From the IMG/VR virus record IMGVR_UViG_3300034152_000992, positions 1 to 40,443 of that record: 40,443 bases of DNA, one strand, 5' to 3'. The stretch is from a virus. The notes beneath the pieces were generated by a model, which saw nothing but the letters and a program-made list of their open reading frames with translations, made no database searches and was not told the DNA's origin. Of the stretch, positions 3,592 to 30,125 are shown in pieces. How positions within the stretch are numbered: position 1 is the first letter of the stretch; each line of letters opens with the position of its first letter. The translations under genes and the position numbers were made by a program.

Positions 3592-4101
3592 ATGAGTGAT
3601 TTTTCATGGATTAAAGAAATTTGTGATGATCTAAATGCAGGTGATAGCTTTTTGGTAGGGTGGGTATTAGGGACTCTATACCATAAAGGAATTCCAAAAG
3701 TCACTTTAAGAGGCGCCTCGACCAGAATATTTTCAGACATTGTAACCCAATGTAAAAACGATACTTGGAGTCTCGAAAAGTTTATCCAAATCGAATTTGA
3801 GAAATTAGAGAAGTTGCTTTGGTATGGGTTATTTATTTTAGACGAGGAAGAGGTTGAAGCTGCCATAAAGCAGCTAAGTGGTGCTGAATTAAAATTAATC
3901 AATATGCCTACCGATGAGGTGGCCAAAGGTTTACCAGGATTAGAAATTGAAAAATACAATATTGTTGGGTATAGAAAATTAGAAGATGGTCAAGAAGACT
4001 ATTGTATCCAAAACAGGTCTCCAAACCCAACCATTAGGTATCTGCCAAGATCACCAGAGTTTACTCAGTGTATTGGTTTCAAACCAGTGAGGGAAGAATG
4101 A
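3592..4101 (+). CDS. Hypothetical protein, translationally coupled to RtcB
   Basis: This 169-residue soluble protein has no recognised motif. The first part is predicted helical and hydrophobic (GDSFLVGWVLGTLYHKG); an acidic patch follows near residue 84. Its stop overlaps the rtcB start as ATGA, so the two proteins are likely made in fixed ratio. Archease, the usual RtcB partner in cells, is a small acidic beta-rich protein. I see no archease signature here, so any partnership with RtcB is inference from position alone. The promoter at 3532 lies just upstream. Confidence 0.7.
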   Translation: MSDFSWIKEICDDLNAGDSFLVGWVLGTLYHKGIPKVTLRGASTRIFSDIVTQCKNDTWSLEKFIQIEFEKLEKLLWYGLFILDEEEVEAAIKQLSGAELKLINMPTDEVAKGLPGLEIEKYNIVGYRKLEDGQEDYCIQNRSPNPTIRYLPRSPEFTQCIGFKPVREE

Positions 4102-5775: not shown

Positions 5776-6447
5776 ATGTTCCACATAGCGATTGAAGGGA
5801 ACGACTTCACTGGGAAGACTGTATTGTGGAGAGCGTTAAAAGATGAGTATGAGAAAGATGGTGTAATCTTCACCAGAGAACCTGGCAGCACTTTTGATAA
5901 GTTTTCACAAGATATCCGTGAAACTATTTTCCGGTATGGTGAGGATGTAGATCCTTATGCCAGACAGTTCGGTATGCTTACTTCCAGGATACAACAAGAC
6001 AGTAAACTAAAAGGACCGGTTGATTTTAAAGACCGTACTTATTGGAGTACAAGGAACTATTTTGCCAGAGATGTCCATAATGCAGAAGAATTGGCAGAGA
6101 TGGAAGATCTAATCATCCGTTTGATTAAAAAGGGAAAACTTACTCCTCCAAATATCCTTATTTATTTGACAGTATCTTTTGAGGAAGCTGTACGAAGAAA
6201 GACAGCTGTAGGACAAAGAGCGGATGATGATTTCATGGATGAAGCTGTTGGTATCAGGTCCATGTTCGAGGAAATGGATGAACTGTACAAAAACAGTATT
6301 GACTGGATGCGCAGTACCATGGAAGAACAGCATGTCTTTATGGAAATTAATACCAACGGAAAAACTACTGCCCAGATAATGGAACAGATCAAGCATGTCG
6401 TGATAGACAATATTCCGGATCTAAGGCGTGCTTTGATAGGTGCGTAA
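5776..6447 (+). CDS. tmk: Thymidylate kinase-like dNMP kinase
   Basis: This 223-residue P-loop kinase should phosphorylate dTMP to dTDP with ATP in the cytoplasm. Visible family motifs are the P-loop IEGNDFTGKT (residues 6-15), TREPGST (DRE-like motif near 35-41), a DR motif in FKDRTYWSTRNY, and a lid region around RRKTAVGQRADDD. TAGGAGG before the ATG at 5776 gives a strong start. It ends in a TAATG overlap with the RdgC-like gene. With ThyX and the thymidine kinase nearby, it completes a thymidine nucleotide pathway. Sequence is divergent, so substrate range may differ. Confidence 0.88.
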   Translation: MFHIAIEGNDFTGKTVLWRALKDEYEKDGVIFTREPGSTFDKFSQDIRETIFRYGEDVDPYARQFGMLTSRIQQDSKLKGPVDFKDRTYWSTRNYFARDVHNAEELAEMEDLIIRLIKKGKLTPPNILIYLTVSFEEAVRRKTAVGQRADDDFMDEAVGIRSMFEEMDELYKNSIDWMRSTMEEQHVFMEINTNGKTTAQIMEQIKHVVIDNIPDLRRALIGA

Positions 6448-7513: not shown

Positions 7514-7768
7514 ATGAAGAGGCGGCATAAAGATATCTACGCTAATGGATTGCCGGTATCAGATAATGAGTTGACAAGAAAACATGCAAGTAAAAAAGGT
7601 AAATGCAAGTTCTGGCGTTTCCATGAATGTGAAGAACATGAGTATTGCCTTTACGCAAAAAATAGAGTTATGTGCCACGCTGTGAATGATAAGTGTGTCT
7701 TTTGGGGTGAGCACATGGGTAACGATGGAACATTAAATTTAAACTCAGAGGAGCTATTATGGGACTAG
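7514..7768 (+). CDS. Small cysteine/histidine-rich protein
   Basis: This 84-residue protein has cysteines and histidines spaced CKFWRFHECEEHEYC, then CHAVNDKCVFWGEH, suggesting one or two zinc sites of mixed Cys/His type. The ATG at 7514 is chosen over an upstream in-frame start at 7484 because the longer form would overlap rdgC more and has no better ribosome site. Its end overlaps the thyX start by 10 nt. Function unknown. Confidence 0.65.
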   Translation: MKRRHKDIYANGLPVSDNELTRKHASKKGKCKFWRFHECEEHEYCLYAKNRVMCHAVNDKCVFWGEHMGNDGTLNLNSEELLWD

Positions 7769-8628
7769 AAAAAGGTGCAGTACCTATTACGGCAATAATG
7801 CCGCATTGTGAATTTCCGGACGGACCAATCAACGGAGCAGATATCCTGTTGCGATTAGAGAGACGGGCAAGGACATGTTACAAATCTGAAGGTAAAATAA
7901 AACCAGGGTCAGATATTACACTTATTAAGAAAATTCTAAAGCTGGGCCATATCAGTATTTTTGACCATATTCAATTATCTGTAAAAGCAATTTACGACAG
8001 ATCCGCCAGTCACCAACAAGTTCGACATAGAGTAGGCGCGGCGTATGCCCAGGAAAGCCAGAGATATTGTAACTATGACAACCGTGGGTTACAAATAATT
8101 TATAATAAAGAGACATGTATGGGTGTAAGTCTGGATGAAATCAATGAATTCATCATTGATTCTTATCATGAATTCACTCAGTCAAACAGTTATGCATTGT
8201 CAAATTACCCAATGCGTAAAAAAGGGAAAGAGTGGCCAAAGAGACTGATCTATTGGTTGGAAGCAATTTTTGTGGCCAATATGAAGTATAAAGCTCTCAT
8301 TGGTGAGAAAGTCAAAGCAGAAGACGCCAGATCAGTCCTACCGAACGCAACTAAAACAGAAGTGGACATCACTTACGATCTGACAGAATGGCGCCATGTA
8401 TTTAGAGACCGTGCGTTAAACCAATTTGCTCAATGGCAGATCAGAGGTTGTATGCAACAAGCCTTAGTATGGTTTGCTTGTCAACTTCCAATAGTATTTG
8501 ATGATTTGGTTATGGAATTAATGGGTAAGCCAGATCTAGTGGAACCACTTTTCATTAATGATGCGTGGTTGGTACAGATGTTTGAGCACGCAAATGTTCA
8601 TCCGGAAACTGTAAAGATAGCATTCTAA
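7759..8628 (+). CDS. thyX: Flavin-dependent thymidylate synthase ThyX
   Basis: This 289-residue enzyme makes dTMP from dUMP using methylene-tetrahydrofolate, FAD and NAD(P)H. The ThyX signature is visible as RHRVGAAYAQESQRY (R89-H90-R91, S100). The usual spacing is RHR-x7-S; here eight residues separate RHR from the serine. Other ThyX-like elements are ISIFDH near the N-terminus (family: H at the FAD site) and an arginine-rich C-terminal half ending in REWR-like segments (LTEWRHVF, WQIRGCMQQAL). GAGGAG upstream supports the ATG. It overlaps the next start as TAATG. Confidence 0.92.
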   Translation: MGLEKGAVPITAIMPHCEFPDGPINGADILLRLERRARTCYKSEGKIKPGSDITLIKKILKLGHISIFDHIQLSVKAIYDRSASHQQVRHRVGAAYAQESQRYCNYDNRGLQIIYNKETCMGVSLDEINEFIIDSYHEFTQSNSYALSNYPMRKKGKEWPKRLIYWLEAIFVANMKYKALIGEKVKAEDARSVLPNATKTEVDITYDLTEWRHVFRDRALNQFAQWQIRGCMQQALVWFACQLPIVFDDLVMELMGKPDLVEPLFINDAWLVQMFEHANVHPETVKIAF

Positions 8629-9260
8629 TGAAGTACGATAGGGTTGGTTTTGATATTGATGGGGTGTTCATCGGAACCTCCATCTTTATTCATGAAAAAA
8701 TGAAGACAGAACGAGGTATTGATTTCAATTACAATGGTAGGTTGATGTTCAATGCGCCGATCGTGATAAACGCTTTTCGTAAGGGAGTGTTTGGTGATGG
8801 GCCAATTTATTATGATGCCTTATTGGTTGCCGAGTTCTGCGCGACACATAAGATTCATCTTGATTTTATAACTGGTAGGCACAAAAACATTTGTGTTGGG
8901 CTTGGTAATAGGATTTCAGAACGGTACCCAGATCTAAAATTCGATATAAGGTGTTTCCATGAACCTAATTACAATCCTAATGTGAAGGTTACTAAAGAAA
9001 AGTATTTCAGAGAGAATGGGTATCTGTATTGGTTGTACGTGGACGACGATTGGAGACTGGTCAGAAAGCACAGTATGTTTGAAGTAAAGCATATGTTATG
9101 GGTAGACAGGCAGGGTGCAATTGAAGGTTATGGCAGACCAGCTGACCCTATACCAACCATTAATGACTTAACCGAGTGTATTAAATTATTGGAGGCTTTT
9201 CGTGCTAAAAAAATTAATGTACCAAGTGCGCAGACAATTCTCGATCAACAAAAAAGATAA
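8628..9260 (+). CDS. HAD-superfamily phosphatase, possible deoxyribonucleotidase
   Basis: The 210-residue protein has the four HAD motifs in order: GFDIDGVF with the nucleophile and second Asp (D9, D11), FITGR (motif II Thr), a lysine region KVTKEKYF (motif III), and YVDDDWRLV (motif IV). The HAD fold hydrolyses phosphate esters through an aspartyl-phosphate. Location directly after thyX suggests a nucleotide-related role such as 5'-deoxynucleotidase, but the substrate cannot be read from sequence. The last codons contain the ribosome site (GGAGG) of the next gene, which starts at 9202. Confidence 0.78.
   Translation: MKYDRVGFDIDGVFIGTSIFIHEKMKTERGIDFNYNGRLMFNAPIVINAFRKGVFGDGPIYYDALLVAEFCATHKIHLDFITGRHKNICVGLGNRISERYPDLKFDIRCFHEPNYNPNVKVTKEKYFRENGYLYWLYVDDDWRLVRKHSMFEVKHMLWVDRQGAIEGYGRPADPIPTINDLTECIKLLEAFRAKKINVPSAQTILDQQKR
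9191..9204 (+). promoter_or_regulatory. Ribosome site with GTG start for gene 9202
   Basis: GGAGG at 9191-9195, spacing of six, then GTG at 9202. The same layout with nearly identical sequence recurs at 9963-9976 (GGAGGCATTTCGTG). Both sit in the end of an upstream coding frame reading EAFR, so it decides the GTG starts. Confidence 0.7.
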
Positions 9261-9996
9261 ACACAAGATCAGGATTCTTCTCAGTTCTGATTTGAGTTCC
9301 GATAATATTGCTAATGATTGGGGTGTATTCGTGTTTTCAGACGTATTTCACAAACAACACGATAAAAACAGGATACTCAAAAAACTCTTAAATGATTTTA
9401 AACATTCTGTTTTTATGCCAATCCTAAAATCTTGTGATAAGTTGGAAAATATCAGAAGGGATGCCAAGTCACCCGGAAATCAAGTGATGTTTAGCGATTT
9501 GAAAGTGTTGGCGGACCATGAGATTGACGCCTACAATAAATCAAATGTGAACCCAATTACATTTGAGTCAGATCACAACACTTTTATTTACCGTGGTAGT
9601 ATAAAGTGTAATTCGTGTGTGTCTCTTGGAGGGTTGTCGTATCGCCAGGTTGTATTGTTGACATTGTTAAATACTTTTAGGGTTAGTTCACTGAATGCTA
9701 TTGCTGAACAGGATTACGCTGTGTCTCGCGGTTCTGTGGATAATACGATCGATTTGTTATCAATAAAGCTGAGGCAGCTTGAAAGTAGTATTAATACTAA
9801 TTTTGAGAAGTTAATGGACTATAGATTGGAACAAACGGCCAATTCATCTACGTTTTTTAATCAAGATATAACCAGAAATGATGTTTGGTTTTTTGTGGAT
9901 AAGGTCTGTAGGATCAGATACGGTGATTCGGCATTAGACTTAAACTTTACTTCAGGTTTAACGGAGGCATTTCGTGGTAAAATATGTGATATTTAA
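9202..9996 (+). CDS. Hypothetical protein paired with small ATPase
   Basis: This 264-residue soluble protein starts with GTG, supported by GGAGG at ideal spacing. It overlaps the HAD gene by 59 nt and the ATPase gene by 23 nt. No catalytic motif is recognised. A CNSC pair lies near residue 136, and a predicted helical region with a helix-turn-helix-like appearance follows (residues ~145-195: LSYRQVVLLTLL, then IAEQDYAVSRGSVDNTI). The tight coupling to the ATPase at 9974 suggests that the two act as a pair, but this is inference. Confidence 0.7.
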   Translation: MLKKLMYQVRRQFSINKKDKHKIRILLSSDLSSDNIANDWGVFVFSDVFHKQHDKNRILKKLLNDFKHSVFMPILKSCDKLENIRRDAKSPGNQVMFSDLKVLADHEIDAYNKSNVNPITFESDHNTFIYRGSIKCNSCVSLGGLSYRQVVLLTLLNTFRVSSLNAIAEQDYAVSRGSVDNTIDLLSIKLRQLESSINTNFEKLMDYRLEQTANSSTFFNQDITRNDVWFFVDKVCRIRYGDSALDLNFTSGLTEAFRGKICDI

Positions 9997-10531
9997 CAAA
10001 GACTGGCGTTGTTTTAAACAGGGACAAAGATTTAACTTTAGCAAAGGGATCAATCTCATCGTAGGGGACAATGGTACCGGAAAAAGTTCGATCCTTCAGG
10101 CAATGAGATTTCACGCCAATTCAGATTTAATTGGGATTGAGCGTGAGAAAGATGTCGAAGTTCGAGCTTTTGATTTTGAATTGGATAATGTCCGGATAAA
10201 TCCAATGAAAGATGCTGATGGCCAGGTCAGTTCCTTCCAGTTGAAAAGTGTATACCGCAGCCACGGTGTATCAAATTTCCATACATTGATGTTGCTTATG
10301 GAGTGCCAAAATACTTTGATGTTATTGGATGAACCAGACTCCGCGCTCAGTTTAAAATCTATCCCAAAACTGGTGGACTTATTCAGGACATTGGCTTCCA
10401 GAAATAACCAAGTTATTGCCGTAGTAAATCATCCAAATCTGATAACCGCGTTTCATACTGTTTTAAGTTTAGATCATGACGGAAAGCAAATCAGTTCAAG
10501 GGATTATGTATCATCATGTTTGTCTAAATAA
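9974..10531 (+). CDS. Small ABC/AAA-type ATPase (COG3910-like)
   Basis: This compact 185-residue ATPase has Walker A GDNGTGKSS near residue 31 and Walker B LMLLDEPDSALS near 115. A signature-like RSHGVSNFH lies before Walker B and a QVIAVVNHPNLI switch-histidine region follows it. The order Walker A, SHG segment, DEPxSALS, H-loop is that of the predicted-ATPase family COG3910 and of SMC-like ATPases, but here it lacks any long coiled coil. Start is GTG at 9974 with GGAGG. It overlaps the gene at 9202, suggesting an ATPase plus effector pair. Role unknown. Confidence 0.8.
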   Translation: MVKYVIFNKDWRCFKQGQRFNFSKGINLIVGDNGTGKSSILQAMRFHANSDLIGIEREKDVEVRAFDFELDNVRINPMKDADGQVSSFQLKSVYRSHGVSNFHTLMLLMECQNTLMLLDEPDSALSLKSIPKLVDLFRTLASRNNQVIAVVNHPNLITAFHTVLSLDHDGKQISSRDYVSSCLSK

Positions 10532-12093: not shown

Positions 12094-12687
12094 GTGAAAG
12101 GGACACTCGAAGCTATCACAGGTAACATGTTTTCTGGAAAGACCGAGGATCTGATCAAGAGACTTAATCTGGCCCTTATAGCCAGGAAAAAAGTATCCGC
12201 ATATAAGCATAAGCATGATACGCGGTACAGTGAATCCACCTTGGCGTCCCATGGTGGACAAACACTTTCTTGTAAATTGGTGTGTAATTCACAATCCATA
12301 CTGGATGATTTGTATAAAACAAACAGAATTCCGGATGTGATTGGTATTGATGAAGGTAATTTTTTTGACGATAAACTACCAGAAGTGGTGGATATTCTTG
12401 TTAATAAGCACATGTGTAGAGTTATAGTGTCTGGGTTAAACCAGAACTATAAAGGTGAACCATTTGGACCTATGCCGGCCATTATGGCCATGGCAGATGA
12501 TGTTCAACTATTGTTTGCTGTTTGCAGCATATGCGGAGCAAAAGCGACAAAATCCCAACGAATTGTTGAGGACTCTGCTGAAATTTTACCTGGTGGTAAA
12601 GAGTCATACGAACCCAGGTGCAGAGATCACCACACTACAGTCATGTGGCCAAAGCAAGGATGTCTTTTTAACAAGGAGAAAAAATGA
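12094..12687 (+). CDS. tdk: Thymidine kinase (type II)
   Basis: This 197-residue enzyme phosphorylates thymidine to dTMP. Type II TK motifs are visible: P-loop GNMFSGKT at residues 10-17, the Walker B-like IDEGNFFDD (family IDEAQF), VSGLNQNYKGEPFGPM, and a zinc-ribbon pair CSICGA with a distal CRDHH. The lasso segment GGKESYEP, which contacts the base, is present. Start is GTG 12094 with AAAAGGAGG upstream. The stop overlaps the next start. The salvage kinase acts with Tmk and ThyX in the same cluster. Confidence 0.93.
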   Translation: MKGTLEAITGNMFSGKTEDLIKRLNLALIARKKVSAYKHKHDTRYSESTLASHGGQTLSCKLVCNSQSILDDLYKTNRIPDVIGIDEGNFFDDKLPEVVDILVNKHMCRVIVSGLNQNYKGEPFGPMPAIMAMADDVQLLFAVCSICGAKATKSQRIVEDSAEILPGGKESYEPRCRDHHTTVMWPKQGCLFNKEKK

Positions 12688-14125: not shown

Positions 14126-14564
14126 TCGGTTTATCTCCTTTTAAATATTCATCTTTAGTGGTTTTGGTATCACAGAATTCAAAAGATCTGGGTGACATGG
14201 CAATATGGTCTATATCTATCCTGGTGGCCACCAGAACTTTTTTACCATTCATGGTCCGTCTTTCGAATTTTGGCTGCCCAACCAGGTTAACTTTGAATGC
14301 TTGATTAAAAACTTCAGCACTGGCGTAAAGTGCTTTGTTTTGCATTTCTTTTGTAATGGTCAAGACTGCTTTCAAACTTTCAGTCAACTTGGCGGTGCCT
14401 ACCGGATCTTTCTGCGATAGGGCGAATTTTAATGGTATCTCACGGCCGATTTCATGGTCAACCGCACCTTTCTCTACCATTGAATAAAAACCTTCCCCAG
14501 AATTGTCTTTCAACTTATCATAAATGATTATTGGGTAGGTTGTGAAAACTATTGAAGTGCTCAT
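14118..14564 (-). CDS. Hypothetical protein
   Basis: The 148-residue protein is soluble and has no recognised motif. The first 30 residues are predicted to be beta-rich, followed by a helical block and a second strand-rich half (KFERRTMNGKKVLVATRIDID). It overlaps the upstream kinase by 4 nt and the TSCPD gene by 8 nt, so the three are co-transcribed and coupled. The link to nucleotide metabolism is only by context. Confidence 0.65.
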   Translation of the reverse strand: MSTSIVFTTYPIIIYDKLKDNSGEGFYSMVEKGAVDHEIGREIPLKFALSQKDPVGTAKLTESLKAVLTITKEMQNKALYASAEVFNQAFKVNLVGQPKFERRTMNGKKVLVATRIDIDHIAMSPRSFEFCDTKTTKDEYLKGDKPNG

Positions 14565-15256
14565 GCATTACCTCTGGTTTCAAGTTCTCTGGACCAACCA
14601 GTCCAGAACAGGTTCCATCGTTTGTCATATTCGAATAAGGCGTCTTTAATATTTTGGTGAATTTTTTGTGGATCATCTGAGTTGGCATCCACTTTTATAA
14701 CCAGGCGACCATCTTCCCTGGAGGCTCGGTCCATTTCATAAAAATATCGATCATCTAATTGTCGAAGGTATGGAATCCAAATATCCGGATCACATTTCTT
14801 TTCTGCTTTTCTGGCCCTTTCTTTGATCCTTTCATAACAGATCTCAACACTGGCTTGTAAAAACACAAATGTCATCCAACGCTCAACAGCATTACGCTTC
14901 CTTTTATTGAGTGCGCTGTATGCGCGGTAACCTAATTCGGAAATGTTACCAGCACGATAATGGCACCAGGCAAAAACATCGTCACCACGTCTTGATCGAT
15001 CAATAATTGACCCTTGTCCAGTAGCTGCAGTATGATCGATAGCACCTTCTTCGATCCCATCTCTGCACCCAAGTGTGAAATATTGGAACTCTAAGGCATA
15101 CCGTTTCATATTCGTGTAGAATAGGTCCAAGTATTTGATGAAATCCGGATTGGTGTCTGCCGGTTCCTCAAATAATTTGAACCCAAAATTCTCAGCAGCT
15201 ATTCTGGCTTGTGTGGATTTTGTTGCGCCAATGATACCTTCGAAACAAACGATCAT
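14561..15256 (-). CDS. Deoxynucleoside kinase with altered P-loop
   Basis: This 231-residue protein fits the deoxynucleoside kinase family (dNK/dCK/dGK), which phosphorylates deoxynucleosides. Motifs seen: P-loop-like FEGIIGATKST near residues 5-15, EEPADTNPDFIKYLDLFY with the substrate Glu, LEFQYFTLGCR, and IIDRSRRGDDVFA (family ERS...D..FA). The lid arginines are RIKERARKAEKK. The canonical P-loop GxxxxGKS reads GIIGATKS, with Thr in place of the last Gly, an unusual change. AAGGGGG precedes the ATG. It heads a three-gene leftward unit. Confidence 0.82.
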   Translation of the reverse strand: MIVCFEGIIGATKSTQARIAAENFGFKLFEEPADTNPDFIKYLDLFYTNMKRYALEFQYFTLGCRDGIEEGAIDHTAATGQGSIIDRSRRGDDVFAWCHYRAGNISELGYRAYSALNKRKRNAVERWMTFVFLQASVEICYERIKERARKAEKKCDPDIWIPYLRQLDDRYFYEMDRASREDGRLVIKVDANSDDPQKIHQNIKDALFEYDKRWNLFWTGWSRELETRGNA

Positions 15257-19628: not shown

Positions 19629-21542
19629 ATGGGCCTATCAGTTAAGAGTAATTCGCACAATGCGATACACGAACATATTCAGAAAAATAGGTCCAATCCT
19701 TTTGAAAATGTCAGCATAAATTTGCAGAGCATTGTAGAAAAGGAAAACAACAAATCCATAGTTGCTGACTCAATCAAGAACAGCATCGACACTTTAGATC
19801 CAAACTACCGTGAAAAACAGGAACGAGAGATCCTTCCAATTGAAGAATGGATTGACAGTTATCAACATGTTGGCCCATTAATCTATGATTTGTGGCCATC
19901 TATCTGTGACGACATTATAAATATTTTTAAGGACCCTTTGCGGTATACTGAGATTCTGGTAACTGGTGCGATCGGAATTGGTAAAACATCTTTGGATGTT
20001 TTTATTTTGTCCAGAATGGTTTATGAATTGTCGTGTATGATGAATCCGGCATTGTTTCTGCGTCAGATGCGTTTTTCAACTATCTCATTTGCCTTATTCT
20101 CCATTAATAAAAGAAAATGTGAGAAGACAATTTTTAAAGATGTCTTTGCTTATATTAAAACAGTTCCATATTATAGGGAAATGTTTAAATGGAATCCTGA
20201 ACTTTTAAAAGAGGTTCAATTTCCAAAAGGTCTCAATGTTGTTCCGATCCCTACTAATGCAGATGCATTGGCATCATTGAACCCTATCTTAATCATCATG
20301 GACGAAGTAAATCTATGGGAACAAGTTGAGGCCTCAAAAAAGGTCCGTGGACTAAGCGAGGCGTACAACGCAGCAAAATCTGTATATGATGAAGCCAAGA
20401 GTAGGCAAGTGTCTCGTTTCTTCAAAAATGGTGTGAAACGGGCCAAGTTATTATTGTCTTGTCAGAGAGTTTATCCGGATTCATTTCTGGAAGATATTAT
20501 AAAGGACGCCGAAGATAAAGGGCGAATTGGAAAAGATGTTTATTTGATTGATCGGTCTCAATGGGAAGCCCAGCCAAAAGGAACTTTCAGTGAAAAAACT
20601 TTTCGTGTTGAGATTGGTACAGAATATAAGAATTCAAGAATACTTAAAGGCGATGAGAAAGATGTCAATCAGAAGAATGTTATCGATGTGCCGATCGATT
20701 TCCTAGATCTATTCGAAACAGATATTGATAAAAACATCCGTAATATTGCTGGTAAACATGTTCTTTCAATTAAGCCACTCTTTAGAGATAAAACTAAAAT
20801 CGGTAAAGCGATCCGTAATATAGACGATCTGTGGCCAGCTTACACTATTACACACCCAGCCAGAGCAGACTCTGTTGATTTCAGAAGGCAGTTTGAATTC
20901 AAAAGGGACATGCTGATCAATCCGGATTTGGAAAGACCTCAGCCTAGAATTAACCCAGAGAAACCGAGATTTATCCATATCGATTTAGGTGCCACTGGAG
21001 ATGCCTGCGGATTTGCCATGTCTCACATTTATAAGAAAGTGGTAGTCCATCGGTATGATGATAAGTCTAAAACAATTGTAAAAGAATTGGATAATTTTTA
21101 TTATGTAGATTTCTTTCAACAAATAACGCCCCCACCTGGCGGAGAAATCGATTTTGCCATGGTTAGAAATATTATTTATGAGTTAGCTGGTATGGGATTT
21201 TACATACCGTTTGTCTCATATGATACCTGGCAATCAAGAGAGAGTCGCCAGAGATTAATAGAGCAAGGGTATGCGTGCGAGTTCCTTTCTGTGGATAAGA
21301 CAGATGAGCAGTACATGTACCTGAAAGACACTTTTACTGAAGAAAGGATTTCTTTATACGATTCGGATCATTTAATGGAAATACAAAAGCTCGAACGAGA
21401 CCCACGTACTGGAAAGGTTGACCACTTGAGGGGGTTCAAAAAAGATGTGGCTGACGCCATTTGTGGGTCCGTTTGGGATGCTAAATGTTATGGAGATTAC
21501 TATGATACGGCGGATAAAGAAATGGATTGTAGGGCCTGGTAA
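19629..21542 (+). CDS. terL: Large terminase subunit (packaging ATPase-nuclease)
   Basis: The 637-residue protein is the DNA-packaging motor. The ATPase part has Walker A GAIGIGKT (residues 113-120) and Walker B LIIMDEVNLWE (221-231). The C-terminal RuvC-like nuclease has a first catalytic Asp in FIHIDLGATGD, a middle region YDTWQSRESRQRL, and a final acidic pair in GFKKDVADAI. It cuts concatemeric DNA and pumps it into the prohead through the portal. The gene starts one nucleotide after the previous stop and overlaps the next start as TAATG. Confidence 0.95.
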   Translation: MGLSVKSNSHNAIHEHIQKNRSNPFENVSINLQSIVEKENNKSIVADSIKNSIDTLDPNYREKQEREILPIEEWIDSYQHVGPLIYDLWPSICDDIINIFKDPLRYTEILVTGAIGIGKTSLDVFILSRMVYELSCMMNPALFLRQMRFSTISFALFSINKRKCEKTIFKDVFAYIKTVPYYREMFKWNPELLKEVQFPKGLNVVPIPTNADALASLNPILIIMDEVNLWEQVEASKKVRGLSEAYNAAKSVYDEAKSRQVSRFFKNGVKRAKLLLSCQRVYPDSFLEDIIKDAEDKGRIGKDVYLIDRSQWEAQPKGTFSEKTFRVEIGTEYKNSRILKGDEKDVNQKNVIDVPIDFLDLFETDIDKNIRNIAGKHVLSIKPLFRDKTKIGKAIRNIDDLWPAYTITHPARADSVDFRRQFEFKRDMLINPDLERPQPRINPEKPRFIHIDLGATGDACGFAMSHIYKKVVVHRYDDKSKTIVKELDNFYYVDFFQQITPPPGGEIDFAMVRNIIYELAGMGFYIPFVSYDTWQSRESRQRLIEQGYACEFLSVDKTDEQYMYLKDTFTEERISLYDSDHLMEIQKLERDPRTGKVDHLRGFKKDVADAICGSVWDAKCYGDYYDTADKEMDCRAW

Positions 21543-22042: not shown

Positions 22043-23467
22043 ATGCCAGACTACCCTATCAGTAATATAGTCACGGCTAAAATAATTGGCCAGGAAGAGG
22101 ACTATATACCAGGTAAACATCCTGGCTCACAACAAATAGAAGATCCCTTTGCTGGGGTTGGGGCAATAGCAGGTGTTAAAATATTAGAACCAGAAGCAGA
22201 TCCAACATTGTGGATTGATATGTTGACTGCCAACACTAGGTTAAATTCTATCACCAGGGCAATTGCCCGTATGACCGTTGGGCTTGGGTACGATATTGTT
22301 CAGAAGATTCCGGACTGGGAAAAAGGTAAGATAAACGAAGAGTTACTTCTGTGGGAACACCAGAGGGTGGCGGAATTGTTTGCCAACCCAAATGGAGAGT
22401 ACTCTACTACTGAGTTATTTTTCAGGTCTATGTATGACGAGCAAGCGATTGGAAACTCGTTCATAGAAGTTGTTCCACAAAACAAATTGTCTTCATCCGG
22501 GTTGGCAGATGTAGCAGGAATACGACATGCGCCTGGACATACTATCAGAAAGACAAAAGATGATCCTGGGTTTGTTCAAGTTAGAAGTGGTCGTTACGCA
22601 TTTTTCAAAATGTTCAGTGACGAAAGAGTATTTAGCGTTCAGTCCGGCCAAGAAGAAGTTTTGACAGATCCTACAAAACGCGCCAACGAGATGATCCACT
22701 TCCATAGTTACAGCCCTTTTGATGATCACTATGGAGTACCAAAATATGTAGCCTCAACCAATGCTATTGCTGGTAACAGGTTACAAGGTAGTTGGAATGT
22801 GAAGTTCATTCAGAACAATGCTCATGTTCCTTATGCTGTTATCGTAGAAAACGGGACATTGGATAATCGTTCAATGCAATACATTGAAACTTTTATCAAT
22901 AAGAGAAGCAAAGGTCCGGATAATTCTGGTCGTCTTCTTTTGTTACAAGGTGCAATTTCAAAAGGTTCACCAAAAGCCGATCCTGTTACAATTCGATTGG
23001 TACCTCTCAATATAGGTAACCAAGAGGATGCGTCATTTCTCAGATACAGGGAGGCTAATGATGAAGAAATTAGAGAGGCCTTCAATTTCAGTCTCGTCAA
23101 CTTGGGTACAACTAAAGATGTCAATAAAGCGGTTGCTATCATTACTCGCAGAATTACTATTGAGCAAATAATTGAACCGGAAGCAGCTAATAAAGAAGAA
23201 GAGATATTCAATACCATCATTAAAAGGTTGGGCGTCAAGTATACCAGGATCAGATTCAGAAGACCACAGACAATTGATTATCTTGAAGCATCTAATGTCA
23301 TTGAAAAGTTGGCCAAGTCTGGCGCATTCGGTATAAATGATATCCGGAGATATGCGTCTGAGCAATTGGGTTTCAATTTTGATGAGAAGCCTGGTGGTAT
23401 CTATAACATTCCATTTAAAATTTTAGATTTTCTAGCGAAATATTTAAAAGAATTCGGGGGCGAATAA
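22043..23467 (+). CDS. Portal protein
   Basis: The 474-residue protein forms the dodecameric ring through which DNA enters the head. It fits the portal family by position after the terminase and by motifs such as ELFFRSMYDEQAIGNSFIEV (wing), MIHFHSYSPFDDHYGVPKYV (typical H-x3-P-x4-YG-x3 segment), and the long helix rich in charged residues before residue 330. AGGGG seven nucleotides before the ATG supports the start. It ends in a TAATG overlap with the large fusion gene, so translation is coupled. It resembles HK97/PBSX-type portals. Confidence 0.87.
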   Translation: MPDYPISNIVTAKIIGQEEDYIPGKHPGSQQIEDPFAGVGAIAGVKILEPEADPTLWIDMLTANTRLNSITRAIARMTVGLGYDIVQKIPDWEKGKINEELLLWEHQRVAELFANPNGEYSTTELFFRSMYDEQAIGNSFIEVVPQNKLSSSGLADVAGIRHAPGHTIRKTKDDPGFVQVRSGRYAFFKMFSDERVFSVQSGQEEVLTDPTKRANEMIHFHSYSPFDDHYGVPKYVASTNAIAGNRLQGSWNVKFIQNNAHVPYAVIVENGTLDNRSMQYIETFINKRSKGPDNSGRLLLLQGAISKGSPKADPVTIRLVPLNIGNQEDASFLRYREANDEEIREAFNFSLVNLGTTKDVNKAVAIITRRITIEQIIEPEAANKEEEIFNTIIKRLGVKYTRIRFRRPQTIDYLEASNVIEKLAKSGAFGINDIRRYASEQLGFNFDEKPGGIYNIPFKILDFLAKYLKEFGGE

Positions 23468-26400
23468 TGTCAAATTTTGATCTCTTGAATAAACATATTC
23501 GTATTCACAATCAGTTCCAAAAATCAAAAGACCCTTCATTGGTAAAAGAGCACCAGGTGATCAGGGAGTTGATGGAAAAGGAAGGATTTATCCATGATCC
23601 ACAGGATGAATTGGACGAATTGTGTAATGCTGAAAGTATGCCTGAAAAAAATATGGAAATGAATAAACTCAGTTTAAGTAAGTTGAGTCATTCCCATTTA
23701 TTAGCACACCACTTCTGGCATGGTGCATCCCCGATGAATTGGACCAAGAAAGACATAGCCAAATTCCATACTGATATTGTGACAGAATTAGAAAAGCGTG
23801 GATCTTCACACAAAAATGTTGATACCTTAGATTTAACCAAAGAACATCACGATCCGGATGAAGATAAAAATAAACAAGAGAAATCTACTATAAACCTAAG
23901 CGAAGTCCTCTCTTGTTTAACCGGAGACTTTAAAGTTCATAAGGATTATGTTTGTTTGGTTGGCGATCTGGTGAAAAGTGGAGAATCCAAAAAAGGATTG
24001 GATATTTGGATAAAGGGTGAAGATCTTCCTGCAGATGTAAAATCTATTTTGGAATACAGGATAACGAAAGCCTTACCACCTTCTGTTCAAAGTAAAGTAA
24101 ATTTTATTTATGATCAGACAAGTTTTGAGAAAAGCAACACTTATGTCCCTTTGTTTGACATGGCATTTATACGGACAAACCAAGAGAACAAATCTGTCGA
24201 ACTGCAGGCAGACGAATTTGATACTTTAAAACGATTCATCACACCGGAAGCATATGAGAAAAGCGTTACATTAAAAGATGGGATGCACGCACCAGATGCG
24301 GTGTATAAAGATGAAAACAGGCAGCTAATGGACGCCGTGGTTGAGTACTTCACCGGTGACGATATTGCAAAAGGTATTTTTGTTTCCAAAAAAGTCGATG
24401 GGATTCTTGTAAAATTTTCTTATATTAATGGTAATACTACCATTTTTTCAGAAGATGGATTGAATGTTACTCATCGGTTTGGCAAAGTGGTCAAGGATTT
24501 AAAATCGGTATGTGAGGAGCGCGGTATCAATAAATTTGTTGGTGAAGGTTTCATCGATTTTTGGGAAAAGAAATCAAGAAGTCATATGCACAAAGATTTC
24601 ACCAAGAATTATGCAAAAGGCGAAGACACGCCAGACGATACTGGCGCAGTATTGTCGGTCTTCAATGTATTAGATCTTGTGCAAAACAAAACAGCATATG
24701 AAGGTTTAGCCAGCAAGAGTGAGGATATTCGGCAGAATGTTTTACAACTTTTAGAATTGCCTTCATCTGATATAAACCCACCTGCGGAAAAATCGATTAA
24801 TTACCTACCAGTCCATAAAGTGGATACCGAAAAAGATTTGATATCTACTGGAAAACGGTTGGCAAAGTTGTGTGGATCTGAAGGTGCAATCTTCCGGAAA
24901 ACTGATTCAACCTATGGAGAGGATGGGTCAAGTTGCCAGGTAAATAATACTACAGTATTGGCTGTGAAGGTACTGGAAGTTAAGTCAATTAATGATGAGT
25001 ATTCCAGGTATACTTTTTCAGATGATGGGATCAACCCGTCTGGCATCACTAATAAAACAAAGGTAGTGGCAGATAAGAAAGATATCATTGAAATTGAAGT
25101 TGAAAAAATTAATAATGTCGTTACCAATAAAGTCCATAAATTATTCTATGAAAATCCGAGAGTCTTAAAAAAGTTAGACAGAGATAAACCAGATACATCT
25201 TCAGCTATTATTGGCAAGTCCAAGCGGGACAAAACATATAACGAAAAACAAATCACAAACGGGAAAGCCAATTACACGTTGAAGTCTAACAGTGTATATG
25301 AGTCTTATTTCCCACAAACTTTATTAAAATTAAATGGCCATTTGGAATCCATGGGATTTGATAAAGACACCACAATTAAATTCCAGAAATTTAATGAGGA
25401 TGAAAATTCAGAGATCGTTATTGTGGAAGGTATGGATGTGACAGAAAACTTCCGTCTAACAAAAGATGGTTTTTCAGACGCACTGAAACCAATGCCAAGT
25501 AACAGTGAGATCGCTATCCAATTGGACCAAGATGTTAACCCAAAGGTGGAGGAGCCTACAGCTGAGTTCACGGATGAACTGAGTGACGCAATCATTGCTA
25601 TGGCTGTTAAGTCAAATGAGTCTTTGAGCTTGTTGCGCAAAGGCCGTATGGCCAAAGGGTTAGAAAATTTCCCTGATATAGCTATACTTCCTGAAGACCT
25701 TAAGACTGTGAACGAGGGTGGTGTAGATTACGCATACAGTTCAGAAGGTGATTTTAAAGTTGCCATAGATTACAAAAAAGAAATCGATAAAGATATGGCT
25801 GTCAAACGGTCATCTGTCGATCGTATAATTTGGGATGGGGTAGAGAAGTATTACCAGTACGAATTTGGCCCATGCACCATTTGCAAAAACATTTATATGG
25901 TTTCTCCAGAACCTGGTAAAAAATACCAATTTGTTGCCCAGTATCATGCCAGAGGTAAATCGATTCACAACGATATCCGGATGGAAACCAATGGTAAAAA
26001 TTTAATCGGTTGGACACTTAATACTCAGATTGCCGGTGCAGTAAAAGAACCAATCACAAAATTATCCAAATTGAAAGAGATCATTAAAGGTGGCCATAAG
26101 TTTAATAAAATAGATTTTAATAATGGCGCCTGGGTAAAACGGAGAACTGTCAAAGGTGATCCACTTGATGCAGAGATTATGTGTGAGAAGAAACCGGAAA
26201 TTCCACATGCCTGGTTAACTGTAGAAGGGGATGATTTTAATGCCGGTAGTACAAAGAACAATCCGGCCGTGTTTGCCATAGCAGATAAAGGAAATGTTGA
26301 GTATCTTGCACAAAAGAATGTTGCTCACGAGTATATGTTTGCTGGTAAAGGTTTAAATTATAGAGTCCTGTTTAGACGCCTTGGAACAGAAGCATTTAAG

Positions 26401-26769
26401 TTTTTAATTAAAAACAGATCTTTGATGGATAGTATCCAAAAAAGGATTATGGATGACGATCTTGATGAGTACATTGTTAGTACAGCTAAAGCAAAAGAGT
26501 TGCCTGCTGCTGAACAAAATGACTTACGTGGCGACTATGCTTGGTTGGTAATTAAACCAAAAGAACAAAGTCCGTATGTATTGTCTTCCAGAGCCAAGTC
26601 TAAAGGATGGGTACCAGACCACGGAGTATCAGCATTGCCTTCTAAAATAGAGAAGAAAGTTCCAGACAGATTCAAGTACTGGAATATTGAAGACGCCAGT
26701 GAGAGAAAGTCCACACGCGACGCTTTATTAGAAGCCATCCAAAACAAGGAAGTTACCCTCCCAAAATAA
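23467..26769 (+). CDS. Nucleotidyltransferase-like/ATP-dependent ligase/LigD-phosphoesterase-like fusion
   Basis: This 1100-residue protein combines several DNA-end-processing folds. Residues 80-112 contain HHFWHGASPMNWTKKDI. Residues 155-235 look like a minimal nucleotidyltransferase (LVGDLVKSGESKKGLDIWI), but the second acidic residue is not evident. Residues 300-510 carry ligase motifs: KVDG with catalytic K309, FVGEGF, EGAIFRK (472-478) and K501/K506 of motif V. An OB-like region ends near PRVLKKLDRDKPD. Residues ~815-1000 match the LigD 3'-phosphoesterase pattern, with HARGKSIHNDIRME (H827, H834, D836, R838). The start overlaps the portal stop as TAATG. Its role in a head module is unknown; sealing or cleaning DNA ends during packaging is an inference. 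Confidence 0.8.
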   Translation: MSNFDLLNKHIRIHNQFQKSKDPSLVKEHQVIRELMEKEGFIHDPQDELDELCNAESMPEKNMEMNKLSLSKLSHSHLLAHHFWHGASPMNWTKKDIAKFHTDIVTELEKRGSSHKNVDTLDLTKEHHDPDEDKNKQEKSTINLSEVLSCLTGDFKVHKDYVCLVGDLVKSGESKKGLDIWIKGEDLPADVKSILEYRITKALPPSVQSKVNFIYDQTSFEKSNTYVPLFDMAFIRTNQENKSVELQADEFDTLKRFITPEAYEKSVTLKDGMHAPDAVYKDENRQLMDAVVEYFTGDDIAKGIFVSKKVDGILVKFSYINGNTTIFSEDGLNVTHRFGKVVKDLKSVCEERGINKFVGEGFIDFWEKKSRSHMHKDFTKNYAKGEDTPDDTGAVLSVFNVLDLVQNKTAYEGLASKSEDIRQNVLQLLELPSSDINPPAEKSINYLPVHKVDTEKDLISTGKRLAKLCGSEGAIFRKTDSTYGEDGSSCQVNNTTVLAVKVLEVKSINDEYSRYTFSDDGINPSGITNKTKVVADKKDIIEIEVEKINNVVTNKVHKLFYENPRVLKKLDRDKPDTSSAIIGKSKRDKTYNEKQITNGKANYTLKSNSVYESYFPQTLLKLNGHLESMGFDKDTTIKFQKFNEDENSEIVIVEGMDVTENFRLTKDGFSDALKPMPSNSEIAIQLDQDVNPKVEEPTAEFTDELSDAIIAMAVKSNESLSLLRKGRMAKGLENFPDIAILPEDLKTVNEGGVDYAYSSEGDFKVAIDYKKEIDKDMAVKRSSVDRIIWDGVEKYYQYEFGPCTICKNIYMVSPEPGKKYQFVAQYHARGKSIHNDIRMETNGKNLIGWTLNTQIAGAVKEPITKLSKLKEIIKGGHKFNKIDFNNGAWVKRRTVKGDPLDAEIMCEKKPEIPHAWLTVEGDDFNAGSTKNNPAVFAIADKGNVEYLAQKNVAHEYMFAGKGLNYRVLFRRLGTEAFKFLIKNRSLMDSIQKRIMDDDLDEYIVSTAKAKELPAAEQNDLRGDYAWLVIKPKEQSPYVLSSRAKSKGWVPDHGVSALPSKIEKKVPDRFKYWNIEDASERKSTRDALLEAIQNKEVTLPK

Positions 26770-26891: not shown

Positions 26892-28712
26892 ATGGGATAC
26901 TTTAATAATGTCGAATTCAAGATAGAGGTACCGTTCCAAAAGAGCGCAATCCTCAAAGAAAGTCGTGAATTCGAGGGAGAAGGTTTTCCGGAAGATTTGC
27001 CCCCAGGTTCAAGAGTAATTGAAGGGTATGCTTCGACAAAAGATCTCGACTACCAAGACGACATCGTAACCGAAAAAGCCCTTAATAAAATCGTTGAATT
27101 CCTTAAAACAAACCGTACAATGCTCCATAATCACGATCTTGATAATGCCATTGGTCGGGTTGTTGATACAAAATTGACTGATGAAGGTGCTTGGATCAAG
27201 GGTTTAATCTCTTCCACAGAGGATAAAATTTGGACCAAGGTTCAGGAAGGAATCCTCAACAAGTTTTCAATCGCTGGTAAGATCACAAAAGCTGAAGAAG
27301 TTTGGGATGCGACTGCTAAAAAATATGTCCGTCACATTCTTGATTTGGAAATTTACGAAGTTTCTCTGGTAAGTGTTCCTGCCAATGCCAAAGCTCGCGC
27401 AATCAAGTATTACATTGTTAAATCACTTGACGATCATGTGAAAGATAATTATAGAAAAACAAATTCACCAGTCGAATTCGTGAGTCCAATCGTAAAATTT
27501 AAAGAAAATGAAAATGGTGGTTTGGACATTACTACCTGGTCAACTGCAGACAAATCAGAAATTTCTGCAGCTACCAAATTTGTAATGGAAAAATCCAACA
27601 ATATGAACGGATGTCCAATACTGTTTAAGAACAGTGTAATTGGTAAAGTCAATAATATCGTCTCCAAAGGCGATGGGTTCGGAATTGAGGCTACCATTTC
27701 GAGAACAGAAACAGAAGCTGTTCAAAAGGTTCAAGAAAGAATTTTGACTTCCGTTGGTATTAACAGTAATCTGGTTGTTCAAAAGAACCTCACTTCTGAC
27801 GAAAGCGAACTTGTGAACTTCTTGGCAGATGGTATTGAGTTACGTTCAGTGCCTCTGACTAAGGCGCAGATGCTTGACGCCACAATTAGGAAACAATTCG
27901 ATATAAGTAAGTTTAATAAAGGAGACGATTCTATGAAAAAGGAAGAATTACAGAAAAAATTAAACACTCTCCTAAAGGAATACAACGACACGTCAGGCGA
28001 AAACCTGCAGCTTGTTGACAAGGGAGAGGGAGGAGATTCCTCAAAAGGATGTGACGATCCTGAAAACAAAGAGGATAAAACCCAAACACCACCAGCCGAA
28101 GGTGATGGTGGAGCTTCTAAAGCGGAAGGCGAAGGCCAACCACCTGAAGAAGATCCCAACAAAAAACCCGAAGAAGAGGAAGGCGGCATGAAAGAATTAT
28201 CCACAAAAATGGATAATATGATCGAAGCCGTTAACAATTTAGCAGCCACTTTGGCAGGTAAAGCAGCCAGCGAAGAAGGTGACGATGGTGATGGTGATGG
28301 TGAAACACCTCCAGCAGAACCACCTGCACCAGCCGAAGCTGACAAAAATAAAACTTCAGATGCCCAGAAAAGCATTGAAGCAAAAGTTGAAGCGTTGACC
28401 AAAACTGTTACAGACGCACTATCCAAATTCAATGGTGGGTCAAGTAGCAGTAAAGAGCAATCTCCACTGGAAAAGAAATTAGCGACATTGGAAAAAGGTA
28501 TCGCTGAGATTCAAAAACTTTCTGGCGTTTCCCAGGTTCAGAAAGGTAACGAATCCGGAACTACCATTCCCAATTCACCCGAAGATGTAACCACTGCAAA
28601 ACCGACTGGCGGAAAGAAAGAAGGTGAGTCCACGGCAATCTCCGATCAAGACTTTGACGCTTTTGGCGGTTTACTGCTTGGAAAATACGGAAAAGCTGAA
28701 GACAAAAAGTAA
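26892..28712 (+). CDS. Prohead protease with pseudo-protease repeat and scaffold domain
   Basis: Residues 40-175 are an HK97-type prohead protease, with VIEGYASTKD, LHNHD (H79/H81), FSIAGK (S126) and a VSLVSVPANAKARAI end. Residues 210-336 look like a second, decayed copy: VIGKVNNIV ... EATISRTETEAVQKVQERIL aligns with AIGRVVDTK ... GLISSTEDKIWTKVQEGIL, but the His and Ser positions are lost. Residues 348-606 are an acidic, Pro/Glu-rich scaffold with predicted coiled coils. AAGGAG at 27918 and ATG 27933 allow separate scaffold expression. The protease cleaves scaffold and capsid proteins during maturation. No strong ribosome site precedes ATG 26892. Confidence 0.85.
   Translation: MGYFNNVEFKIEVPFQKSAILKESREFEGEGFPEDLPPGSRVIEGYASTKDLDYQDDIVTEKALNKIVEFLKTNRTMLHNHDLDNAIGRVVDTKLTDEGAWIKGLISSTEDKIWTKVQEGILNKFSIAGKITKAEEVWDATAKKYVRHILDLEIYEVSLVSVPANAKARAIKYYIVKSLDDHVKDNYRKTNSPVEFVSPIVKFKENENGGLDITTWSTADKSEISAATKFVMEKSNNMNGCPILFKNSVIGKVNNIVSKGDGFGIEATISRTETEAVQKVQERILTSVGINSNLVVQKNLTSDESELVNFLADGIELRSVPLTKAQMLDATIRKQFDISKFNKGDDSMKKEELQKKLNTLLKEYNDTSGENLQLVDKGEGGDSSKGCDDPENKEDKTQTPPAEGDGGASKAEGEGQPPEEDPNKKPEEEEGGMKELSTKMDNMIEAVNNLAATLAGKAASEEGDDGDGDGETPPAEPPAPAEADKNKTSDAQKSIEAKVEALTKTVTDALSKFNGGSSSSKEQSPLEKKLATLEKGIAEIQKLSGVSQVQKGNESGTTIPNSPEDVTTAKPTGGKKEGESTAISDQDFDAFGGLLLGKYGKAEDKK
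27920..27935 (+). promoter_or_regulatory. Internal ribosome site for nested scaffold
   Basis: AGGAG (27920-27924) lies eight nucleotides before an in-frame ATG at 27933 inside the protease gene, exactly where the protease part ends and the scaffold part begins. It is stronger than the site at the gene's own start. Confidence 0.7.
27933..28712 (+). CDS. Nested scaffold protein (in-frame, internal start)
   Basis: Translation from the internal ATG at 27933 gives a 259-residue protein identical to the C-terminal part of the protease fusion. It begins MKKEELQKKLNTLLKEYN and is acidic, Glu/Pro/Gly-rich in the middle, with predicted coiled coils near residues 90-120 and 165-200 and a hydrophobic FGGLLLGKYG end. 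The arrangement copies lambda C/Nu3, where the scaffold is made from an internal start in the protease gene. The scaffold guides capsid assembly and is then removed. Separate expression is predicted, not shown. Confidence 0.65.
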   Translation: MKKEELQKKLNTLLKEYNDTSGENLQLVDKGEGGDSSKGCDDPENKEDKTQTPPAEGDGGASKAEGEGQPPEEDPNKKPEEEEGGMKELSTKMDNMIEAVNNLAATLAGKAASEEGDDGDGDGETPPAEPPAPAEADKNKTSDAQKSIEAKVEALTKTVTDALSKFNGGSSSSKEQSPLEKKLATLEKGIAEIQKLSGVSQVQKGNESGTTIPNSPEDVTTAKPTGGKKEGESTAISDQDFDAFGGLLLGKYGKAEDKK

Positions 28713-28731: not shown

Positions 28732-28769
28732 CAGGCAAAAAAGTAAATAACATATTATTGGAGGAAAAG

Positions 28770-30125
28770 ATGTCAATAGGACAAAATCAAGAAACCATTC
28801 AGAAGACCTTAGAGTCCAGCGCACTGTTTTCCGGTGGTGAACTTCAGCCGAAACAGTTCGACAAATTTGTAGAAAATGTTAAAGCCCTGTCCAACATGAT
28901 CAAATATATCAGAACGGTCAAGATGGATAGAGCCAAAATGGAAATCGACAAACTGAACATTTCAGAACCGATCACCAGATCTGCCTCTGAAAATGTTCCG
29001 CCAGTTTGGGCAGAAGGGTCCAGTCCCCTGTTCAGCAAATTGGAACTTTCCACCAACAAGATTACCAGTTTCTGGTCAATCACCTGGGAAACTCTCAAAG
29101 ATAATATCGAAAGAGAGAAATTGGAAAGAACCATTATGCGTGGTTTCCAAACCAAAATGGCAGAGGATTTCGAAAATCTGGCTATTAATGGTGACACAAC
29201 TTATTCAAAAACTTCCGCTATCCCAAGTGAAAGACTTTGGGCGATTGATGACGGCTGGTATAAAATGTCTTTATCCGGTCATGTTGTTGATGCTCGTGGT
29301 CATGAAATTTCTTATGAGCTTTTTGAATCCACTATCCGCAGAATGCCGGAACAGTATGCTCAAGATCCCAATGTTCAATGGATCATGAACCGTTTCTGTA
29401 TCTTGGATTGGGTATCCATCCTTGCTCGCCGTGGCGATGTTGGAGCAAAAGTTTTGGAAAACGGAGCAATCGACAGACCTATCCTGGGTTATCGTGTAAT
29501 TCCCGCTCCATTGATTCCTGCAAATATGCCTCTGAGTCTCCCATCCACTACTCTGACACCAGGGTTCCACGATGGTAAGAGAATCGGACCTTTCACCTTT
29601 GCAAGCAATGCCAAGACATTGAAACTTGACATTGATAACAAAGGGGCCGTAACCATCACACTTCCGGTTGCCACATGGCAGACTCCTGAAGTTGCTCGTT
29701 ACATCAACCAGGCAATTGCAGCTGACGCAAATTATACCGCAGCACCAGAATATCACAGTGTTGCAAAAGCTGATGCAGCTGGCCGCCTTATCATTGTATC
29801 TCCTACAACTGGATCAACTTCTGAAGTTGATGTTCAGGCAGTAGCAGATGATGCTTACACAATCCTCGGATTGACAGTAGGTGTTTTTGCAGGTACCGAC
29901 GGTACAACTGCAGGTACAGTGAACGAAGGTACTTTCTTGTGGTTCGCAAATCCGATGAACTTCATCGTTGGTTTGGAACAACGAGTTCGCTTCTACACTG
30001 AATACAAGAAAGACTACGATCGTTTTGAATTCGTAGCATACAATTTCTTGGATTTCCAGATTGAAGAAGTTGACAAACTCGTTGTCTGCAAGAACATCCG
30101 CAAGAAACAGTTCAGCACTTATTAA
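28770..30125 (+). CDS. Major capsid protein
   Basis: The 451-residue protein is placed right after the protease-scaffold gene, as in HK97-fold phages. GGAGG precedes ATG 28770; the in-frame TTG at 28758 is upstream of the ribosome site. The first 90 residues include helices and ITRSASENVPPVWAEGS, followed by core segments such as AEDFENLAINGD and VQWIMNRFCILDW (P-domain-like). Residues ~270-372 are an inserted beta-rich domain, then the chain returns to the core (FLWFANPMNFIVGLEQRVRF ... VVCKNIRKKQF). The insert resembles a part of the protein at 33393. No signal or cysteine motif. Confidence 0.87.
   Translation: MSIGQNQETIQKTLESSALFSGGELQPKQFDKFVENVKALSNMIKYIRTVKMDRAKMEIDKLNISEPITRSASENVPPVWAEGSSPLFSKLELSTNKITSFWSITWETLKDNIEREKLERTIMRGFQTKMAEDFENLAINGDTTYSKTSAIPSERLWAIDDGWYKMSLSGHVVDARGHEISYELFESTIRRMPEQYAQDPNVQWIMNRFCILDWVSILARRGDVGAKVLENGAIDRPILGYRVIPAPLIPANMPLSLPSTTLTPGFHDGKRIGPFTFASNAKTLKLDIDNKGAVTITLPVATWQTPEVARYINQAIAADANYTAAPEYHSVAKADAAGRLIIVSPTTGSTSEVDVQAVADDAYTILGLTVGVFAGTDGTTAGTVNEGTFLWFANPMNFIVGLEQRVRFYTEYKKDYDRFEFVAYNFLDFQIEEVDKLVVCKNIRKKQFSTY

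Follow-up and report, generated by a model that had tools for sequence, protein, structure and literature searches.

The closest described counterparts of the gene reported here come from NHEJ and from the phage T4 head. In P. aeruginosa LigD, roles have been assigned to residues Gln40, His42, His48, Asp50 and Arg52 of the 3'-phosphoesterase (PE) domain (PMC8656161), with equivalents in the archaeal enzymes (PMC4797286); His84 and Tyr88 are both needed in the P. aeruginosa protein, and a role in stabilising the transition state of adenylylation has been proposed for the motif-V lysines of LigD, Lys635 and Lys637 (PMC8656161). In archaeal NHEJ, the PE heals the ends before the ligase seals them (PMC4797286). 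As for T4, heads full of DNA depend on DNA ligase and on endonuclease VII, the latter being bound to the portal, according to work cited in PMC10893049; the T4 internal proteins, which counter host restriction, are packaged together with the scaffold core (PMC3012670).

Here, we describe a multi-domain protein encoded in the head module of a 40,443-base virus record, the whole of which is referred to as the window. Like LigD (the bacterial and archaeal NHEJ ligase D), it combines an ATP-dependent ligase with a PE that shares the fold and the H-H-D-R core. Unlike LigD, it is a viral protein with a Polbeta-type nucleotidyltransferase (NTase)-like domain, its gene lies in the head module and is often fused to that of the head protease, and its PE lacks His84. 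The archaeal stand-alone LigD 3'-phosphoesterases (3p43, 3p4h and 5dmp) also share the fold and the Q-x-H...H-x-D-x-R core, but the viral domain has a His-His spacing longer by one residue, no His84, a Trp in place of Tyr88 and a longer C-terminus. The ligase resembles archaeal and eukaryal ATP-dependent DNA ligases of the LigI type in its adenylation domain, OB fold and motifs I, III and IV, whereas no LigI-type N-terminal DNA-binding domain was detected in the viral protein and motif V is lost in the window member. Parallels to T4 lie in the presence of a DNA-processing enzyme, endonuclease VII, at the portal (PMC10893049) and in the use of the scaffold core as a route for packaging internal proteins (PMC3012670), but these are unrelated proteins without a ligase-PE fusion.

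Materials and methods

The material comprised sequences, mostly of metagenomic contigs, and predicted structures. Relatives were fetched by back-translated, hand-made motif scans and then confirmed by phmmer. Scans with peptide patterns built on P0001, on P0002 or on alignments of these two sequences returned no relatives in IMG/VR or genomes, and a direct phmmer search of the PDB with P0001 gave nothing useful.

Results

The gene and its family

The head genes of the window are arranged in the order terminase large subunit, small Cys-rich ORF, portal, 1100-aa gene, S78 protease, major capsid protein (MCP), sheath and T4 gp19-like tube (Table 1). The preliminary description had reported a single 1100-residue gene overlapping the portal stop, and the ORF is indeed real, with an ATG at 23467 and a one-base overlap; the KVDG (K309), EGAIFRK and HARGKSIHNDIRME motifs are all found in the protein as quoted there. 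Elsewhere in the window, the virus encodes an RtcB RNA ligase (4068-5453, +; PF01139, E = 9e-52) and a thymidine-nucleotide set consisting of a thymidylate/deoxynucleoside kinase (5776-6447, +), ThyX (7759-8628, +), a thymidine kinase (12094-12687, +) and a second deoxynucleoside kinase (14561-15256, -).

Table 1. Head genes of the window and parts of the 1100-residue protein, with positions in the window.
Feature	Position	Strand	Evidence or remark
Terminase large subunit	19629..21542	+	phrog_9, E 5.6e-5
Portal protein	22043..23467	+	PF04860; stop overlaps start of ligase-PE gene
Multi-domain head-module protein, 1100 aa (NTase-like / ligase / PE)	23467..26769	+	
Helical N-terminal region, residues 1-113	23467..23805	+	Sequence; AlphaFold helices 3-110
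Minimal nucleotidyltransferase-like domain, residues 142-265	23890..24261	+	Family motif LVGGxxNxGxTxGDIDIL
ATP-dependent DNA ligase adenylation domain and OB fold, residues 298-579	24358..25203	+	PF01068; profile; Foldseek
Ligase motif I, K309-V-D-G312	24391..24402	+	K309 conserved in 96%
Ligase motif IV, S471-E-G-A-I-F-R477	24877..24897	+	E472 kept; family K at 477 is R here
Ligase motif V position, Q491-V-N493	24937..24945	+	Family K-x-K/H; lysines lost
Linker, residues 580-799	25204..25863	+	No family match
PE1, divergent LigD 3'-phosphoesterase domain, residues 807-1073	25885..26685	+	AlphaFold, Foldseek
PE metal site, H827-x-R-G-K-x2-H834-x-D836-x-R838	25945..25980	+	
Head maturation protease (S78), long acidic scaffold-like C-terminal part	26892..28712	+	PF04586, E 2e-11; sequence
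Major capsid protein	28758..30125	+	PF05065, E 2.5e-6; phrog_1623, E 2.1e-59

Relatives were confirmed by phmmer in 112 loci, corresponding to 105 IMG/VR contigs, the ANMV-1 virus and six contigs from genome bins (of Dehalococcoidia, Aenigmatarchaeota, Brevinema, Planctomycetota, Methanosarcinales and Thermotoga), and a further contig (L011) added by the ligase profile brings the IMG/VR contigs to 106. The family is diverse, with 91 clusters of ORFs at 70% identity when fragments and split genes are counted; the best relatives of the window protein are those of L074, L043, L110, L022 and L091. Occurrence of the same gene in >100 contigs rules out an assembly artefact, and a chance motif is ruled out by the profile E-values and the structure.

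ANMV-1 is the sole relative among GenBank phages, and its homologue, AJP62006.1, is annotated as 'ATP-dependent DNA ligase'. It is a true homologue with NTase, ligase (LIG), PE1 and PE2 domains, encoded directly downstream of the portal gene, but differs from the window protein in its intact motif V and its second PE-like domain. The ANMV-1 product annotated as 'MutT-like phage hydrolase' (L001, 1913-3193) is a portal protein (PF06381, E = 3.2e-22). When phage records were searched with four diverse queries, only ANMV-1 was retrieved, besides a match of 129 residues confined to the protease part of a single query, and no match was found in plasmids. The PHROG 13242 and 1530 profiles match the methyltransferase and XkdF-type protease parts of relatives, but leave the ligase, PE and NTase domains unmatched. 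No description of the ligase-PE fusion or of the family was found in a literature search of open-licence papers.

The ligase domain

In a single-sequence search, the match of the window protein to PF01068 is sub-threshold (E = 1.8e-4; 21.7 bits versus a cut-off of 26.2), and a 37-member profile matches Pyrococcus/Thermococcus DNA ligases with an E-value of 5.7e-25. The AlphaFold model of residues 1-585 (pLDDT 81) retrieved archaeal and human DNA ligases in Foldseek (E between 1e-12 and 1e-15; down to 7e-15 for archaeal enzymes), and the family profile, which has the window among its own sequences, matches the ligase core (298-579) with an E-value of 5.2e-63. In the profile search, archaeal LigI-type enzymes gave better scores with the viral ligase than the LIG domain of LigD did.

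Catalytic positions are well conserved in the family, including K309 (75/78, 96%), E472 (79/82, 96%), the motif-IV Lys (76/82) and the motif-V Lys (83/86). The window protein keeps K309 and E472 (followed by G473), and has R477 in motif IV and Q491/N493 in motif V. The preliminary description had assigned motif V to K501/K506, which are not conserved positions, the family motif aligning to Q491/N493 instead; with motif V misplaced, the loss of its lysines was overlooked. Since the replaced lysines are those with a proposed transition-state role in LigD, the ligase of the window copy is probably crippled, with its activity lost or weak, and it may not ligate at all. In L105 (824-4648, -), the Lys residues of motifs I and V are lost and the motif-IV Glu is changed to Lys, so that a dead ligase is still fused to the protease. 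Because the window copy lacks the motif-V lysines and L105 the ligase catalytic residues, ligation, as far as these residues predict, is not essential everywhere in the family.

The PE domain

For the AlphaFold model of the PE region of the window protein (pLDDT 84), the significant PDB matches in Foldseek were two archaeal LigD PE structures only, 3p43 (E = 3.3e-6, probability 1.00, TM 0.81 by target) and 3p4h (E = 3.2e-5, probability 1.00, TM 0.73 by target). Both archaeal phosphoesterases were also matched by the 37-member profile; profile matches to the LigD 3'-phosphoesterase superfamily have E-values of 0.002-0.004, and the family profile matches the window PE (807-1073) with an E-value of 1.7e-86, the window itself being again among the profile sequences. 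A BFVD search with the PE model gave an unnamed 827-aa protein as the single significant match. Thus, profile searches, AlphaFold and Foldseek all recovered the ligase and LigD-PE folds that had been proposed in the preliminary description, rather than a structure devoid of them.

Across 113 domains, H827, R829, G830, K831, H834 and D836 are conserved in 100% and R838 in 99%, values that are biased upwards by the use of the PE motif as the bait of one relative search. Wherever there is a PE domain, ANMV-1 and the relatives first found by other baits keep the H-H-D core; the Arg is missing in ANMV-1. Residues Q825 (Q or H in the family), H827, H834, D836 and R838 correspond to Gln40, His42, His48, Asp50 and Arg52 of P. 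aeruginosa and are invariant or nearly so, the metal triad His42/His48/Asp50 being represented by the invariant H827/H834/D836 and the phosphate contact of Arg52 by R838. The spacing from H827 to H834, suspected from the window sequence to exceed that of LigD by one residue, does so throughout the family, and the four residues singled out at that stage are retained in relatives (K309 in 96%; H827, H834 and D836 in 100%).

At the column of His84, the family alignment has no conserved His (I912 in the window), and the position of Tyr88 is occupied by W916, with Trp in 95% of the family. Three residues before the His84 column, K909 is nearly invariant (97%) and might be a candidate substitute for the missing His. 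Because His84 is absent and Tyr88 is a Trp, both being needed in canonical enzymes, the substrate or chemistry of the viral PE may differ from theirs. The PE of the window protein is probably intact, unlike its ligase. Most members carry a second, C-terminal PE-like repeat, PE2, with a profile match to 3p43 (E = 1.7e-5); PE2 is absent from the window protein, and its metal ligands are mostly lost in relatives. We regard the family PE as a newly recognised, divergent branch of the LigD phosphoesterases in which the active site is altered.

The N-terminal region, NTase-like domain and linker

The second half of the N-terminal region (SHLLAHHFWH..WTKKDIAKFHTDIVTELEKRG) resembles the pre-NTase segment of several relatives. 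The NTase signature GG...DID, as compared with the Polbeta-type hG[GS]...[DE]h[DE], is conserved in relatives. In the window protein, G177 replaces the first carboxylate, which is D in 79/84 family members, and D179 and D231 are kept; the preliminary remark that this part was short of one acidic residue was therefore right in substance. The same first Asp is also missing from the NTase-like domain adjoining the ligase of L008. Since the Pfam NTP_transf_2 match of relatives is weak (E = 0.024) and the NTase profile has no match in the PDB, the nucleotidyltransferase assignment is a putative one, made at the level of the motif. In family searches, no recognisable domain was found in the approximately 220 residues between the OB fold and the PE.

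Position in the head module and domain shuffling

Conservation beside the portal, which had been proposed as a check on the preliminary description, was found as a conserved slot in the head module. As judged from head-gene profiles and clusters, 46 of the 61 loci with sufficient sequence have a portal or minor-head gene <=6 genes upstream, and 61/71 loci have either a protease/MCP gene downstream or a fused protease, both counts being lower bounds that leave divergent portals, such as that of ANMV-1, uncounted. Different portal and terminase families flank the gene in different loci. In 36 loci, an XkdF/S78-type head protease forms the C-terminal part of the same ORF, in frame. In the related contigs L006 (2870-4390), L008 (5153-6673) and L065, a gene for an AAA-type ATPase of about 500 aa lies between the ligase-PE gene and the protease, and L010 encodes an 853-aa terminase large subunit (7922-10483, -) with an apparent intein, as judged by eye.

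Further fusions include a D12 methyltransferase (11 of the 37 representatives), a metallo-beta-lactamase (MBL; 5/37), a C5 methylase (1/37) and, in L026, a PNK 3'-phosphatase (PNK3P). In L030 (2531-7690), a pyrimidine-dimer glycosylase (Pyr_excise) and a radical SAM domain are joined in a single chain with NTase, ligase, PE and protease-like parts. These accessory domains belong mostly to DNA repair and modification, and catalytic families above Pfam cut-offs are included among them. The NTase, ligase and PE are separate neighbouring ORFs in L015, L044, L054, L067, L073 and L132; the domain order is NT-PE1-PE2-LIG-protease in L113 and L024, and several members have no detectable ligase domain. 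Because separate, fused and reordered versions of the NTase, ligase and PE stay together in one locus, their arrangement points to a joint function.

Discussion

From this anatomy we infer, with a probability of about 0.5, that the protein is a head-resident polyprotein for the repair of DNA nicks and ends, acting on the viral genome at packaging or on leaving the capsid; a role at DNA ends while the genome is being packaged, or incorporation of the protein along with the DNA, may thus be envisaged, as in the preliminary description. A location in the head is made much more likely by the in-frame head-protease fusion in 36 relatives, since a chain with a C-terminal head protease is expected to enter the prohead. 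Made together with the portal and the protease, the protein would co-assemble with the prohead or the portal vertex, as gene position and protease fusion suggest. The PE, given its fold and metal site, would strip 3'-phosphate or 3'-ribonucleotide blocks off broken ends; the ligase domain, whose fold and motifs are present in relatives, would seal nicks or ends; and the NTase and accessory domains (methyltransferase, glycosylase, PNK phosphatase and MBL) would prepare or protect the DNA. In the window virus, the absence of both motif-V lysines has probably abolished or weakened the sealing step, which would leave the PE as the main working part of the protein. The ligase precedent of T4 would fit packaging better, and the glycosylase and methyltransferase extras would fit ejection better.

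The loss of ligase motif V and of one NTase carboxylate in the window copy, the dead ligase of L105 with its fold kept, the mostly lost metal ligands of PE2 and the strong head-module location would all agree with a structural or scaffolding head protein, in which recruited ligase and PE folds bind or organise DNA at the portal or core without catalysis. This is nonetheless rather unlikely, as metal ligands conserved in 100% of PE domains and K309/E472 conserved in 96% of ligases would not be expected of pure scaffolding, and the accessory domains include catalytic families. An ordinary LigD-like replication or repair enzyme, encoded among the late genes and working in the infected cell rather than in the particle, is an improbable reading: the protein is the sole PF01068 ligase in most records searched, but it sits in the same place beside terminases and portals of different families, and 36 loci have it joined in frame to the head protease. 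Moreover, two records have a stand-alone second ligase beside the head ligase, which argues that the latter is not merely the replicative ligase.

The combination of PE, ligase and a nucleotidyl-transfer domain also mirrors the logic of LigD (PMC8656161), and end healing by the PE precedes sealing in archaeal NHEJ (PMC4797286), as would be fitting for an NHEJ-like enzyme that closes the linear genome into a circle after injection and in which the NTase-fold domain replaces the LigD polymerase. We consider this quite improbable, given that the NTase is small and its polymerase role putative, that the ligase scores better with archaeal LigI-type enzymes than with LigD LIG, and that a search of 49 virus records, many of which are fragmentary, found no Ku. 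The Pfam families listed for 37 members include no match to a primase/polymerase domain such as the AEP-type polymerase of LigD. Classical, Ku-dependent NHEJ is unlikely and was rejected on the absence of Ku from those same, often incomplete, records.

More tentatively than the repair reading itself, the family could represent a widespread, undescribed prohead-encapsidated repair/modification polyprotein of uncultured tailed viruses of archaea and bacteria, with NTase, ligase, two PEs and, optionally, glycosylase, PNK phosphatase, methyltransferase and MBL, which would be freed by the fused protease and act at the portal or at ejection. Tailed viruses are usually viewed as leaving DNA repair to the host or to early viral enzymes. 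In >100 uncultured viruses, ligase, 3'-end-healing and other repair domains are found in the head module, often in the protease's own polypeptide, which suggests that a DNA-repair kit may be put in place as the capsid shell is assembled. Repair enzymes have been reported in virions of some large eukaryotic viruses and, if the proposal is true, the prohead repair polyprotein would be their counterpart in prokaryotic viruses. Should the protein be part of the particle, its presence would explain how these viruses handle nicks and damaged ends at packaging or entry.
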